Below the pieces are notes generated by a model that did not search any database, was not told the origin of the DNA, and saw only the letters and a program-made list of their open reading frames with translations. From positions 1 through 20,533 of IMG/VR virus record IMGVR_UViG_3300030328_002868: DNA of 20,533 nucleotides; one strand, written 5' to 3'. Source of the DNA: a virus. Positions 14,686 to 18,349 of this stretch are shown here, piece after piece. The position numbers were made by a program, and so were the translations under genes. Numbering within the stretch: the stretch's first letter is position 1; each line of letters begins with the position of its first letter.

Positions 14686-14847
14686 ATGGCACTCTATAAA
14701 CTTTACAACACAGATGAAGGGACTCAAGGGGTTAGAAAAAACTTGACTAATTTCAATATCGCAATTCCATTCGACCCAGCAAACACAGATTACCAAGAGT
14801 ATCTAGAGTGGGTAGCAGCAGGTAACACAGCGGAGGCAGCTGATTAA
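14686..14847 (+). CDS. Small fibre-region protein (53 aa)
   Basis: This short gene begins 2 nt after the fibre stop: ATG at 14686, TAA at 14845-14847. The product starts MALYKLYNTDEGTQGVRKN, has the segment 'IPFDPANTDYQEYLEWVAAG' and ends 'NTAEAAD'. The '(I/S)P.dp.N~dYq.YL.W~aeGNtpe.aD' pattern is common in small marine phage proteins at the ends of fibre genes or operons, and in the C-termini of some fibres. It is probably the last gene of the plus-strand virion operon. Its stop overlaps the stop of the minus-strand gene 14844-15011. Confidence 0.6.
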   Translation: MALYKLYNTDEGTQGVRKNLTNFNIAIPFDPANTDYQEYLEWVAAGNTAEAAD

Positions 14848-15011
14848 CGGTATAGGCGTTCAGGCAAAGGCGGTCTAGGTTCTAATACTTGATTATGTTT
14901 TTGTCCAATTAAATAAAGAGGCGCTAAAGCAAGAAATAATATTCCACACATACCAAGAGCCACACTTGAAGCTTTTAATACAGCGCTTCTTACTATGTCA
15001 TTGTCAAACAT
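14844..15011 (-). CDS. Small single-pass membrane protein (55 aa)
   Basis: A minus-strand ATG frame: MFDNDIVRSAVLKASSVALG..., then the hydrophobic 'MCGILFLALAPLYLIGQ', and a Pro-rich C-terminus with 'EPRPPLPERLYR'. A single membrane helix spans about residues 14-36. It fills the otherwise gene-free gap between the fibre operon and the next plus-strand gene, is convergent with the fibre operon and divergent from 15063-15266. Upstream there is no strong Shine-Dalgarno match. The family is unknown to me. Holin- or spanin-like function is possible by position and topology only. Confidence 0.45.
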   Translation of the reverse strand: MFDNDIVRSAVLKASSVALGMCGILFLALAPLYLIGQKHNQVLEPRPPLPERLYR

Positions 15012-15052
15012 GGCTGATTATTGTTAATAGGCTTATTATGCCGACATAGTAA
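14990..15052. repeat. 10-bp inverted repeat in the divergent gene interval
   Basis: TTACTATGTC at 14990-14999 is the exact reverse complement of GACATAGTAA at 15043-15052. One arm lies in the first codons of the minus-strand gene and the other just upstream of the plus-strand gene at 15063. This could be a shared operator or a hairpin, or chance. The second arm also contains the TAGTAAA motif found at 17985-17991 and 18983-18989. Confidence 0.4.
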
Positions 15053-15062
15053 AGGTTTACAC

Positions 15063-15266
15063 ATGGTTAGAAAGTTAATTGACGGTTTAGCCGTTGCTTC
15101 ATTTTTGTTAAGCGCTGCTTTCGTTGCAGGTGGTATTTATTCATACATGTGGATTTCTAATGAAGACAACCAAAAAGAACTGATGGATAGCGCAGTAGAA
15201 AAGATCAAGGAAAACTTGCCAATACCGACAGTTCCTAAAACAACAGGTGGAGCCTTGCCGTTCTAA
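15063..15266 (+). CDS. Small membrane protein (67 aa)
   Basis: I chose ATG 15063 because AAAGG (15051-15055) lies upstream with suitable spacing, and the product then starts MVRKLIDGLAVASFLLSAAF, with a helix from about 8 to 31 after a short positive N-terminus. An earlier TTG at 15021 in the same frame is less likely. After the membrane helix come a charged segment ('NEDNQKELMDSAVEKIKENL') and a Pro-rich end. This organisation resembles a short protein common in marine cyanophages next to the type encoded by the following gene. The stop TAA (15264-15266) is directly followed by the next gene's GTG, so the two are probably cotranslated. Confidence 0.65.
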   Translation: MVRKLIDGLAVASFLLSAAFVAGGIYSYMWISNEDNQKELMDSAVEKIKENLPIPTVPKTTGGALPF

Positions 15267-15989
15267 GTGGAGATACCAGAAATACCTAAAATTGGTATTC
15301 GTAATATAAAAATTCAGGAAGTACCAGTTAGGCCGTCTTATTTAGATATAGAGGTGCCCGGTTGCAGCTATCAGCATCGTGATCAGAATTTACAACCAAA
15401 GCTCTTAATTACAGATCCCGGCGGAGTTTATTCTAATTGCCCCGGTGGTGCTGGCATACCTAGTTATTATCCGATGGACTGGAACTCTAAGGATATAAAG
15501 GTTATAGAAGAAAAACCCGTTGCTAGTAATGACCCGCCTCCACCTCCTGAGACAAAGACGGAGAAGTCAACAATTCCAGAGATTGAAAAGGAAGATGTTG
15601 AATGCCCAAATCCAAATAAGAACAATCCCCGCATAGGAGATATAGCGGCTAACGGGAAAGAAAAGGTTTCAGGGTTTGAGCTTAGTTCTGATGGTCAAAC
15701 TTGCCTTGTCGTCTATGAGCCAATTGGTGCTATTCAGCAATATTTGCCAGCGCCTACTACTGTTACTACTACAAGTGTGATCGCTTCGGCGGCGGTAGTT
15801 AGTTCCGTTTTAGCCAAGCCCTTAGCCGACCTAATTTTAAAAATAATACGGCCAAGTATTAAAAAATTGATTACTACTGCTCAAACAAAGATTTTTCGAA
15901 AACCCCCCAAGGTAGTTTCATATCGTGAAAAGTTGATGGCTCAAAGAGTGAAGAATAGGGCTGTACGTCTTTTAAAAAAAGGTTGGTAG
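15267..15989 (+). CDS. Cyanophage-type membrane-associated protein of unknown function
   Basis: This 240-residue protein starts at GTG 15267, immediately after the previous stop. It has three parts. The N-terminal part has repeated 'EIPEIPKIGIRNIKIQEVPVRPSYLDIEVPGC' followed by 'NLQPKLLITDPGGVYSNCPG' and 'SYYPMDWNSKD'. A Pro-rich stretch lies near residue 90. The C-terminal part has 'QQYLPAPTTVTTTSVIASAAVV', a membrane helix (about 165-190) and a very basic tail ('YREKLMAQRVKNRAVRLLKKGW'). I recall proteins with this layout in marine cyanophages, but no function. The last 116 bases overlap the 3' end of the opposite-strand gene 15874-16581. Confidence 0.65.
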   Translation: MEIPEIPKIGIRNIKIQEVPVRPSYLDIEVPGCSYQHRDQNLQPKLLITDPGGVYSNCPGGAGIPSYYPMDWNSKDIKVIEEKPVASNDPPPPPETKTEKSTIPEIEKEDVECPNPNKNNPRIGDIAANGKEKVSGFELSSDGQTCLVVYEPIGAIQQYLPAPTTVTTTSVIASAAVVSSVLAKPLADLILKIIRPSIKKLITTAQTKIFRKPPKVVSYREKLMAQRVKNRAVRLLKKGW

Positions 15990-16581
15990 ATTTTATTTCG
16001 TGCTTATGCGGTAAGACTTGATTTGGTAAAACGGTGACTTCAATATCTTCACAGGTTACGGCGCTAGGACTCCCCGGACGGAAGCGGACGCCAAGCTTGA
16101 GTTGTTCGGCGCATATCTTGAGACGATGCAAACTTACCTCTAATGAAGTCTTGGTATATAGCAACTCTTGATTCTTGATATTCGTTTGAACGGCTTGATG
16201 GCAAAGGTCAACACCTCTACCCAGTGGAATGCTGAACTGTAAACTTGCGCCCCAATTGAGAGCATAATTATCCTTCTCAAAGCGGGGAATCTCACTGTGG
16301 TACAGGACTTCTCCACTGTCCGAATATATGGGCGTTCTCGTAACAGTTTCCTTTGGTCTTGCAAAGCTGTGCGAATTTACAACATACGGCGAGAAACTAA
16401 CGGACGGGGTGGTGCATTGAATACCCTGCGAATAGCGCATAACTGTGCCACTTGACGGGATTATTTGCGTAGCATTGTTGTTAACGACCCCACTAGAATT
16501 ACTTGAAGGCGATGCGACCGTTGTCGATGCTAAAACTGGGGTATGGCCACTTATTAAGAATATATAGGCTATTGCCCGAAT
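15874..16581 (-). CDS. Exported protein C of the minus-strand envelope cassette (start uncertain)
   Basis: A minus-strand frame open from an ATG at 16707. That start would give 42 extra residues lying in another frame over the preceding gene, and would bury the signal peptide. From an ATT at 16581 the protein is about 235 residues and begins with a normal export signal ('RAIAYIFLISGHTPVLA', cleavage likely before STT). The next part, 'STTVASPSSNSSGVVNNNATQIIPSSG...YSQGIQC', then 'NYALNWGASLQFSIPLGRGVDLCHQA', a helical 'LYTKTSLEVSLHRLKICAEQLKLGVRF', and 'APHKHEI'-like 'LPHKHEIKS', match a cyanophage protein type I recall. About 40 residues after this match overlap the plus-strand gene. The start codon is non-canonical or mis-sequenced; no ATG/GTG/TTG is near. 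Confidence 0.6.
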   Translation of the reverse strand: MRAIAYIFLISGHTPVLASTTVASPSSNSSGVVNNNATQIIPSSGTVMRYSQGIQCTTPSVSFSPYVVNSHSFARPKETVTRTPIYSDSGEVLYHSEIPRFEKDNYALNWGASLQFSIPLGRGVDLCHQAVQTNIKNQELLYTKTSLEVSLHRLKICAEQLKLGVRFRPGSPSAVTCEDIEVTVLPNQVLPHKHEIKSTNLFLKDVQPYSSLFEPSTFHDMKLPWGVFEKSLFEQ

Positions 16582-17057
16582 ATACTGACTGACTCGCTGA
16601 CCTGCGTTGTTTCTACCGTCCTTTGTATTGTTGTTGTATTCTCTAACCCCGGTGCCGTTACATGTTCGATTAAAGAAAATGGGGCTGCCTCGTTTACTAT
16701 TTGCCATTGTGGAATTGATTCAAGTTGTGGCGAAGTCCATGAGAAATCAACGCCGCCTACTGTTTGTGTAGTTGTAGAAGTAGCAGAGGGATTTATTAAT
16801 GTTCCTGTCGTTGGTTCTACGTTCATTCCTGATGCTGAGTAAGTATATCCTGTGTTGTAAGAATGACTGGTCACTGTCTCACTTAGGACAGATGTAGAGG
16901 TTGAATTTATCCTCATCTCACCGCTACGAAATTGAGGAGTTAAAGGGGCTGCAATGGCTTTAGGTACTATTAAACTGCATAATGGTAATAAAGATAAAGC
17001 ACTAATAATAAAAGTGCTAGCGCAATGATTCCTAATATTGTTAATATCATTTGTCAC
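16569..17057 (-). CDS. Exported beta/Thr-rich protein B of the envelope cassette
   Basis: A 162-residue secreted or envelope protein. From GTG 17057 it has a short N-region and a hydrophobic export signal (about 15-36, 'FIISALSLLPLCSLIVPKAIA', cleavage likely after AIA). The mature part is rich in Thr/Ser, with alternating polar/nonpolar strands: 'TPQFRSGEMRINSTSTSVLSETVTSHSYNTGYTYSASGMNV', later 'WQIVNEAAPFSLIEHVTAPGLENTTTIQRTVETTQVSESVSIFGQ'. I recall this pattern in cyanophage proteins. It starts 1 nt after the stop of gene A (TAG-A-GTG), and its end overlaps the start of protein C. Another ATG at 17050 opens a separate small frame. Function unknown; a surface fibre or envelope-binding role is possible. 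Confidence 0.65.
   Translation of the reverse strand: MTNDINNIRNHCASTFIISALSLLPLCSLIVPKAIAAPLTPQFRSGEMRINSTSTSVLSETVTSHSYNTGYTYSASGMNVEPTTGTLINPSATSTTTQTVGGVDFSWTSPQLESIPQWQIVNEAAPFSLIEHVTAPGLENTTTIQRTVETTQVSESVSIFGQ
16970..17050 (-). CDS. Possible 26-residue hydrophobic micro-protein inside gene B
   Basis: In another frame of the gene B signal region, ATG 17050 opens a 26-residue product starting MILTILGIIALALLLLVLYL and ending in YYHYAV, stop TAA at 16972-16970. It is almost wholly hydrophobic and would be a single membrane helix. The ATG is 7 nt from the GTG of gene B, so ribosomes ending gene A could use either. It may be only a by-product of the AT-rich signal sequence read out of frame, so confidence is low. 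Confidence 0.25.
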   Translation of the reverse strand: MILTILGIIALALLLLVLYLYYHYAV

Positions 17058-17058
17058 T

Positions 17059-17547
17059 CTAATCTATTGTAATTTGACTTTGAATTGATCCGACTGCCGT
17101 ACTGTTCGCCCCTCCGGCAGTTAGAGAAATCACACCAGCGCTTGTGACCGACCCTGCGAGCGAACCAGCCACACCGCCGAGCGTGCTTGTTTGATTACTG
17201 AAATTGCCTACGGTGCCCACTGTTGGAGCGCTAGTTGGAACAGCATCACCTTGAATATATGAGCTGCTAAAACTGAAATTTTCTCCAGAAGTAGCATTCT
17301 GAGTTGCTGCAATGGTTCCCGGCGAATAAACCCCGCTGCTGATTGTTCCAGCGCTTAGGGTGCCTGCGGTGGTTCCATCGGTTACGTCTACACCCGTGCC
17401 CGAAATGCTGAAGGTGCTCGGAACCCTAGTGGCGGTAGTAGAAGCAGCGCCTACCGTGAGCTGAGCTGAAGAAGTGATTGAGTGCTGTATGTCTGAATAG
17501 GCAGGATTTGCTAGCAGAAATAAAGCGAATGGAAAGAGTCGTTTCAT
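17059..17547 (-). CDS. Exported beta/Gly-Ser-Thr-rich protein A of the envelope cassette
   Basis: This 162-residue protein has a classical signal peptide: MKRLFPFALFLLANPAYS, cleavage before Asp19. The mature chain begins 'DIQHSITSSAQLTVGAASTTATRVPSTFSISGTGVDV', continues with Gly/Ser/Thr-rich short strands ('FSFSSSYIQGDAVPT') and ends 'GNFSNQTSTLGGVAGSLAGSVTSAGVISLTAGGANSTAVGSIQSQITI'. No cysteine appears. It resembles a set of signal-peptide-bearing cyanophage proteins I remember only as uncharacterised. Its ATG overlaps the preceding stop (ATGA at 17544-17547). It may form a beta-helix or adhesive layer outside the inner membrane, or be attached to the virion. Confidence 0.7.
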   Translation of the reverse strand: MKRLFPFALFLLANPAYSDIQHSITSSAQLTVGAASTTATRVPSTFSISGTGVDVTDGTTAGTLSAGTISSGVYSPGTIAATQNATSGENFSFSSSYIQGDAVPTSAPTVGTVGNFSNQTSTLGGVAGSLAGSVTSAGVISLTAGGANSTAVGSIQSQITID

Positions 17548-17975
17548 GAGAGTTTGTCTAGGTCGTTAATACGTGTAGCGGTAGGTTGTTTGGTTATCAA
17601 CTCTATTGGCTGCTTAATGACTATGGTTTGTTGACCTCCTGCATTTCTTGCGCTCATTTGTTCGTCTTCTCTCTTCTTCTTTTTGTTGCCATTATTTGAT
17701 CCAACACTGATTCCCCAACCTGCAAGGATGTTTCCTAATAAACCCGCTGCGAAAGTCGAATCGATCCTTGGCTGATCTGGTATCTCAACGCCAAACATAT
17801 TTGTAGGCAATTTTATGTATCCGAGAGATAACACGCAGATACACCAAAAAAGAATAAATCCTTGCGCCGTGGTACTAACCAAGAACATTATTTTTTCTTG
17901 GTATTCGGGCTGATCTTCCTGAACCTTTACGGGTTTTGGTGATTCTTCTTTTTTGTTAGGTGTTTTTTCGACCAT
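17544..17975 (-). CDS. Membrane-anchored protein, first gene of the minus-strand envelope cassette
   Basis: This 143-residue protein heads the four-gene minus-strand block. Residues 1-28 are charged and Pro/Lys/Glu-rich. A membrane helix lies at about 30-55 ('MFLVSTTAQGFILFWCICVL...'). Then comes 'LPTNMFGVEIPDQPRIDSTFAAGLLGNILAGWGISVGSN', with a second hydrophobic stretch (about 74-91), and a Lys/Arg-rich, probably cytoplasmic, tail. A similar layout recurs in marine cyanophages without known function. It could be an anchor or holin-like partner for the exported proteins encoded after it. The 47 nt between it and the divergent gene 18023-18190 must contain its promoter. Confidence 0.65.
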   Translation of the reverse strand: MVEKTPNKKEESPKPVKVQEDQPEYQEKIMFLVSTTAQGFILFWCICVLSLGYIKLPTNMFGVEIPDQPRIDSTFAAGLLGNILAGWGISVGSNNGNKKKKREDEQMSARNAGGQQTIVIKQPIELITKQPTATRINDLDKLS

Positions 17976-18022: not shown

Positions 18023-18190
18023 TTGCAATTGACTGAAGTTTTAGCCGCTCTTGTTTCAGGATTATTTGTCTTTGGAGCAATGAACGCAAAGAAAACCTCA
18101 GAACTCAATAGAGAGATATTCCAGCGATTAAATAAGTTGGAAACTACTCAAGCTCGATTAGAAGAAGCCATACGTCTACAAAGAAACTAA
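18023..18190 (+). CDS. Small membrane protein with coiled coil (55 aa)
   Basis: A plus-strand frame from TTG 18023 (no ATG or GTG start is available upstream before a stop at 17999). The product starts with the hydrophobic 'LTEVLAALVSGLFVFGAM' and continues with heptad-like 'KTSELNREIFQRLNKLETTQ', a short coiled coil, to the stop 18188-18190. The next ATG begins at once. This resembles the general layout of single-pass phage membrane proteins with a soluble coiled coil (XhlA-type or i-spanin-like), without sequence identity that I can name. Confidence 0.5.
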   Translation: MQLTEVLAALVSGLFVFGAMNAKKTSELNREIFQRLNKLETTQARLEEAIRLQRN

Positions 18191-18349
18191 ATGGAAGACA
18201 TTCTTTCTAGCCCGATCTTTTGGGCTGCTTTCGCTCTTGTCTCTGAATTGGTCGGAGCATCAAAGCTCAGACAGAACGGAATTATTGCCGTTATCTTCGA
18301 TGCTATTAAAAAAATGAAACCAAAGGAGAGCGACACAAGTGTCAAATGA
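18191..18349 (+). CDS. Small cyanophage-type protein (52 aa)
   Basis: ATG 18191 follows the preceding TAA directly. The product starts 'MEDILSSPIFWAAFALVSEL', then 'VGASKLRQNGIIAVIFDAIKKMKP', and ends with a charged tail. 'SPiFWa..AL.SEliG.sklk.NsiiqlI..ai..lKp' is a pattern I associate with short ORFs common in cyanophage genomes. The helix may be membrane-associated or amphipathic. Its last 11 bases overlap the next gene. Function unknown. Confidence 0.6.
   Translation: MEDILSSPIFWAAFALVSELVGASKLRQNGIIAVIFDAIKKMKPKESDTSVK

Follow-up and report, generated by a model that had tools for sequence, protein, structure and literature searches.

A gene cassette for predicted exported proteins, with two genes in overlapping frames, in marine cyanophages of three virion types

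The locus in the window

The window analyzed here, a 20,533-nt stretch of DNA (positions 1 to 20,533 of IMG/VR virus record IMGVR_UViG_3300030328_002868), is a contig of a siphovirus-like phage that carries its capsid, tail tape measure, tail tip J, and fiber genes on the plus strand. Downstream of the fibers lie E and D, also on the plus strand, followed by the convergent minus-strand genes C, B, A, and H (Table 1). These genes belong to a cassette that recurs in marine cyanophages of three virion types and that may act on the host cell envelope. The four-gene minus-strand block described in the initial annotation is real, and the open reading frames (ORFs) of H, A, and B exist with the bounds proposed there. 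Its restriction to four genes was too narrow, as the convergent D and E belong to the same conserved neighborhood.

Table 1. Coordinates of the cassette genes and of the B/C overlap in the window (aa, amino acids; TM, transmembrane).
Feature	Position	Strand	Description
H	17544–17975	-	143-aa membrane protein; PF20048 DUF6450; phrog_2714/721; holin-like by architecture only
A	17059–17547	-	162-aa predicted exported beta protein; phrog_564; S-RSM2 'OMP1'; T4-GC 237; start overlaps H stop
B	16569–17057	-	162-aa predicted exported beta protein; GTG start; PF19847 DUF6322 / phrog_650; A paralogue
C	15874–16707	-	277-aa predicted exported protein; phrog_848/1755; T4-GC 235; mature part from ~16527
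Dual-coding B/C overlap	16569–16707	-	B 3' end and long basic n-region of the C signal peptide
D	15267–15989	+	240-aa Pro-rich protein with C-terminal TM segment and basic tail; phrog_570; T4-GC 234
E	15063–15266	+	67-aa protein with N-terminal TM segment; phrog_568

Occurrence and gene order among marine cyanophages

Loci were collected by an IMG/VR search with A (49 loci), by another with C (80 more), and from annotated phages and genome contigs. The order A-B-C on one strand was found in 131 of the 144 loci, most of them with a convergent D, and H lies directly upstream of A in 58. In tblastn searches of 50,697 phage records, A was matched in 394–397 and C in 434–462. By organism name, these records belong to Synechococcus and Prochlorococcus phages, other cyanophages (including Tiamatvirus, the genus of P-SSP7), and marine or uncultured viruses; the isolates matched were exclusively phages of marine cyanobacteria. 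Cyanosiphoviruses recurrently show H-A-B-C facing a convergent D-E, and the order in MED4-184 is identical to that of the window. T4-like cyanomyoviruses recurrently show A-B-C facing a convergent D (S-SM2, S-SM1, and Syn9); in Syn9 and S-SM1, E is present and H lies in the same neighborhood on the opposite strand. C and D are tail to tail in the window, with a 116-nt antisense overlap (15874–15989); this overlap is not strictly conserved, being 80 nt between Syn9 gp164 and gp165, while S-SM1 166 and 167 abut.

Profile searches found B and C together in Syn9, S-SM1, S-SM2, MED4-184, P-SSP7, and P-SCSP2, with E-values at or below 1e-13 for C and reaching a marginal 0.005 for B (P-SCSP2). The same searches found neither gene in Syn5, S-PM2, S-SZBM1, or S-CREM2. 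H (DUF6450) tracks the presence of B and C where tested, with only a sub-cut-off match in S-CREM2. The cassette is co-inherited, and its genes co-occur far above chance. The initial annotation had mentioned similar proteins from cyanophages and had raised their co-occurrence in this order; both points are borne out. B and C are either both present or both missing in each of the ten isolates. Relatives of C were also seen on two bacterial contigs, Nonlabens xiamenensis NODE_6 (188 kb) and Prochlorococcus AG-418-C09, which are about phage-genome-sized and might represent T4-like cyanophage genomes, present through contamination or co-sorting, and not host genes.

C was detected in T7-like cyanopodoviruses as well, and a further IMG/VR scan yielded 80 loci. 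These phages carry a reduced version, D-H-B-C, followed by the small terminase subunit (TerS) in 70 of 84 podovirus loci; a tail fiber is visible upstream in 25 of those 70. P-SSP7 genes 042–045 correspond to D-H-B-C, between tail fiber and TerS, and P-SSP3 and S-RIP1 are arranged alike. Their depositors labeled the four P-SSP7 products as having one TM segment, two TM segments, and a possible signal peptide, and as hypothetical, respectively. The PHROG families matched by B and H in P-SSP7 are those matched by B and H of the window, P-SCSP2 retains the convergent arrangement of the window, and no A paralogue was seen in the podoviruses examined. In T7, the holin 17.5 and Rz/Rz1 (18.5/18.7) lie between tail fiber 17 and large terminase 19. 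The cyanopodovirus cassette thus occupies a place between tail fiber and terminase, as in T7, and the idea of a lysis function gains weight from it. Directly after C in S-RIP1, SWVG_00017 (L154, 6371–6643, plus strand) shows an N-terminal hydrophobic segment and a coiled-coil-like tail, an Rz-like outline that supports looking for lysis genes at the podovirus locus.

The T4-like version of the cassette was reported in 2010, and the system is therefore not undescribed, as had initially been proposed. In the passages of Sullivan et al. considered here, a hypothetical cluster of T4-GC 218/219/234/235/237 and a 'plasmid stability' gene was found in all cyanomyoviruses except S-PM2, with functional linkage and mobility proposed and no function given (PMC3037559). 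Its members correspond to H (218), D (234), C (235), and A (237), plus E; B is T4-GC 236. S-SM1 genes 163, 166, 167, 168, and 169 carry the labels 218, 234, 235, 236, and 237, respectively, and profile matches of A, B, C, and H were found in this phage, where the genes proved to be homologous and to lie in the same neighborhood. Those passages (PMC3037559) contain no export signals, no selection on the overlap, and no occurrence in siphoviruses or podoviruses, whereas the window holds a siphovirus-like version. Our analysis adds that the cassette extends over three morphotypes, that A, B, and C are predicted to be exported, that the B/C overlap is under selection and the starts need correction, and that the podovirus location resembles that of the T7 lysis genes. 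No publication naming DUF6322, DUF6450, or the cassette PHROGs was found in a literature search. The 'plasmid stability' label is attached to E in the records of S-SM1 (164), Syn9 (gp162), and MED4-184 (CPAG_00006), and is relied on in the relevant parts of two papers (PMC9602691, PMC3037559); for a short protein with a single TM segment, it appears unsupported and is doubtful.

The start of C and the frame shared with B

C was initially placed with its start at 16581, which is an ATT codon, and a non-canonical start at this position was rejected on comparing start positions among relatives. Ahead of the signal-like stretch, the open C frame holds only one ATG, GTG, or TTG codon, the ATG at 16707, which lies inside B in the -1 frame. 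C likely starts there; B and C therefore overlap out of frame over 139 nt, and the coding sequence of the C signal peptide lies within B. The description of adjacent genes as touching or overlapping by a few bases consequently holds for H/A and A/B, and not for B/C.

This out-of-frame overlap recurs in more than 200 loci. In nearly all loci no usable start of C lies near the signal peptide, and the -1 frame is open into B as far as a start at a fixed distance from the B stop: -169, -163, or -136 in siphoviruses and myoviruses, and -109, -64, or -190 in podoviruses. Above this NTG the frame closes soon in most loci. The internal start usually arises where an A or G stands before a Trp codon (TGG) of B, giving ATGG or GTGG; the base before these codons is A at 28 of 49 versus 569 of 1991 elsewhere. 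In a small group of loci, C begins at an ATG of its own that overlaps the B stop (CAATGA); in these, the frame farther upstream is closed at -4, -16, or -91, and in locus L144 at -22. In P-SSP3, a stop interrupts the long C frame, and a new Trp codon of B provides a closer ATG. Exceptions are L002 and L153, with C in the other frame and a TTG or ATG start, L220, with no C start seen, and L224, with only a distant one (-352); distant ATGs also occur in S-SM2 (-289) and L143 (-316 or beyond).

To assess selection, synonymous codons of B were shuffled in 28 lineages below 75% identity, which are not fully independent. After shuffling, the C frame still ran open from its start codon in 0.5–36% of trials per lineage, and the observed openness over these partly dependent lineages gives a summed log10 P of -37.8. 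By this sequence-based measure, the overlapping frame is under selection. The deposited annotations of S-SM1 and Syn9 already contain the overlap. Those of P-SSP7 045 and S-RIP1 SWVG_00016 are truncated and miss the signal peptide, an error that would have masked the exported nature of C.

A different account of C translation, compatible with any role of the cassette, is a -1 ribosomal frameshift producing a B-C fusion or a non-canonical ATA, ATT, or GTA start near the B stop. In its favor, C is read in the -1 frame relative to B where B ends, in every locus but L002 and L153, and the ATT at 16581 aligns with the TTG start of MED4-184. However, the open frame extends well upstream, to an NTG at a fixed position, beyond which it is soon interrupted in most loci; where C has its own ATG at the B stop, the frame upstream is closed; and a frameshift near the end of B would leave 110–190 nt of open frame unneeded. 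No classical slippery heptamer was spotted by eye, no systematic scan having been made. We consider this account improbable, and a programmed -1 frameshift is disfavored.

Predicted proteins and candidate roles

H, as initially described, has a membrane helix: its first TM segment is clear, and a second is weak (1.31–1.54 on the Kyte-Doolittle scale), falls below threshold in short homologues, and is followed by a basic stretch; the P-SSP7 homologue (043) is annotated with two TM segments. H matches no curated holin family, its matches being limited to DUF6450, a sub-cut-off DUF2852, and PHROGs of unknown function. The export signals initially noted in A, B, and C are likewise present, with that of C lying inside B. 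Signal n-, h-, and c-regions and an AxA-type site were judged by eye in all three proteins and are kept in relatives, with cleavage predicted between MKRLFPFALFLLANPAYS and D in A, between ..SLIVPKAIA and A in B, and between ..IAYIFLISGHTPVLA and S in C. On these signals, A, B, and C are predicted to be Sec-exported. A and B are paralogues (hhalign probability 96.5%, E = 7.5e-10). Mature C carries invariant cysteines at 38, 109, 139, and 159, a pattern expected for disulfides outside the cytoplasm.

AlphaFold2 models C with a long beta-hairpin (48–68/74–95) and a 40-residue helix (predicted local distance difference test, pLDDT, 72.5; predicted template modeling score, pTM, 0.42) and B with two long strands (9–31/100–123; pLDDT 77, pTM 0.45). 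Profile searches and structure prediction supplied DUF and PHROG families and hairpin models, and no significant fold match in the PDB: Foldseek returned nothing at E < 0.001, the best values being 0.047 for C (flagellar LPHT ring) and 0.015 for B. The sub-significant neighbors of B and C are mostly ring or pore proteins with long hairpins, which a generic hairpin would match too. In BFVD at E < 0.001, only relatives from cyanophages or unnamed or uncultured phages were found. A TolC/OEP identity for C, prompted by the motif GASLxFSxPLDxxxQxxC..A, was rejected, as neither Pfam nor the PDB gave a family match. Weak PDB profile matches of A and B to antibody chains and designed WRAP-T proteins were judged to reflect composition or short chance matches.

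The cassette follows the host group and not the virion type, being common to siphoviruses, myoviruses, and podoviruses with unrelated virions; a structural role is therefore disfavored, and a role at the host envelope, which the initial annotation considered probable, fits better. We regard it, at about an even chance, as a late marine-cyanophage cassette for breaching or remodeling the host envelope, with lysis as its most likely task. H would build up in the inner membrane, as class II holins do, and A, B, and C would be exported via Sec. The paralogues A and B, with long amphipathic strands, and C, with a long beta-hairpin, a 40-residue helix, and four conserved cysteines, would assemble in the periplasm or the outer membrane and cause its disruption, thereby taking the place of the T7 Rz/Rz1 spanins. 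The Pro-rich D, anchored at its C-terminus, and E, anchored at its N-terminus, would act as partners in the inner membrane; and translation of C from a start codon inside B, with a dual-coded signal peptide, would link both genes. A more specific version, in which phages of all three tail types use a new kind of lysis or egress machine unrelated to spanins, a holin-like protein together with exported A, B, and C subunits that form an oligomeric beta-barrel ring opening the outer membrane, is tentative and rather unlikely.

Late timing in T4-like phages is suggested by the T4-type late promoter motif NATAAATA (described in PMC2984593), which stands at -30 to -35 of A in 8 of 24 T4-like loci versus 2.6 expected; no exact copy precedes A in Syn9 or S-SM1. 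The cassette resembles the lysis cassettes of T7 and lambda (holin plus Rz/Rz1) in its genomic slot in cyanopodoviruses, in placing a small membrane protein beside exported proteins, and in the out-of-frame overlap of envelope genes, -1 for B/C, which is an analogy and not homology. It differs in having no sequence homology, no lipoprotein, and no Rz-type coiled-coil i-spanin, with two to three predicted secreted beta proteins instead. No lipobox ([LVI][ASTVI][GAS]C) was found around the predicted cleavage sites of the three exported proteins of the window, where AxA-type sites occur instead, and no cassette gene combines a TM segment with a long coiled coil, the small TM ORF at 18029–18190 being separate. 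With neither a lipobox nor Rz homology, the cassette does not belong to the classical two-component spanins. The Rz family (PF03245) was not found in nine isolates, with a positive E. coli control. Envelope lysis, one of the roles initially suggested for this block, is made more likely by the T7-like slot. The sequences themselves show the gene set, its order and co-inheritance, the export signals, the selected overlap, and the distribution over hosts and morphotypes, from which the late timing in T4-like phages, the holin-like role of H, the outer-membrane location, the oligomer, and lysis are inferred.

Several observations weigh against a lysis module. None of the cassette genes is homologous to a holin, endolysin, or spanin. 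In many T4-like phages, D and H are distant from A-B-C or on the other strand, and the module adjoins psbA/hsp20/pstS, not lysis genes. S-PM2, Syn5, and S-SZBM1 lyse cells without the module, which is therefore not essential for lysis in general. Podovirus D resembles D of the window in architecture and position only (phrog_570 E = 0.17), and the B and C models are of moderate confidence, with no significant fold match.

Alternatively, the cassette could modify the envelope of the living infected cell, with A, B, and C coating or occupying the surface and blocking superinfection or grazing, and H, D, and E as inner-membrane assembly factors. The export signals, the Thr/Ser-rich beta bodies, the strict tie to one host group across morphotypes, and the placement of the T4-like module among host-interaction genes near psbA, hsp20, and pstS all accord with this reading. 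However, the late-type promoter motif before A in several T4-like phages points to a role at the end of the cycle, the position after the tail genes in siphoviruses and podoviruses is late, and superinfection exclusion is usually early; we consider this reading unlikely. Less probable still is an envelope-spanning channel, in which C (loosely TolC/FlgH-like) and A/B would form an outer-membrane pore for uptake or export anchored by D, E, and H. C is predicted to hold one long hairpin per subunit, as in the FlgH L-ring, lysenin, and aerolysin, and B two long strands, and the weak structural neighbors are ring or barrel formers. Nevertheless, every such match is insignificant (Foldseek E > 0.01, TM-scores < 0.3) and would be given by any long hairpin, C has an extra long helix, and it shows no sequence relationship to these proteins or to others in Pfam or the PDB. 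That A-B-C are minor structural proteins or fibers, or assist assembly, as their place after tail and fiber genes in siphoviruses and podoviruses might suggest, is the least probable role, given the signal peptides, the occurrence with three unrelated virions, the absence of B/C relatives from solved PDB chains although the P-SCSP1u capsid and fiber are present, and the P-SSP7 record, in which B is marked as possibly having a signal peptide and D and H as having TM helices. S-SZBM1 and S-CREM2, whose virion proteomes were consulted, are without A, B, and C.

Other small genes flank the cassette in the window. Divergent from H on the plus strand are two ORFs, one at 18029–18190 (TTG start, N-terminal hydrophobic segment, heptad-like tail) and one at 18191–18349 (hydrophobic N-terminus, match to phrog_22542), which could be further lysis or membrane genes. 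A 55-aa minus-strand ORF (14845–15012; MFDNDIVRSAVLKASS...) with one hydrophobic segment, seen by eye, lies between the last fiber gene and E. No tRNA or Rfam family was found within the window.

The way in which marine cyanophages breach the cyanobacterial envelope is not well explained; Rz-family spanins are lacking in those model phages with the cassette that were tested, and no account of the outer-membrane step in these phages was found in the literature. Hundreds of isolates, spanning three virion types, carry the cassette and a few lack it, which makes the question accessible to experiment in P-SSP7 or Syn9. Viruses of ocean cyanobacteria, whatever their particle shape, thus appear to share a small envelope-directed gene set, two genes of which are written in overlapping frames.

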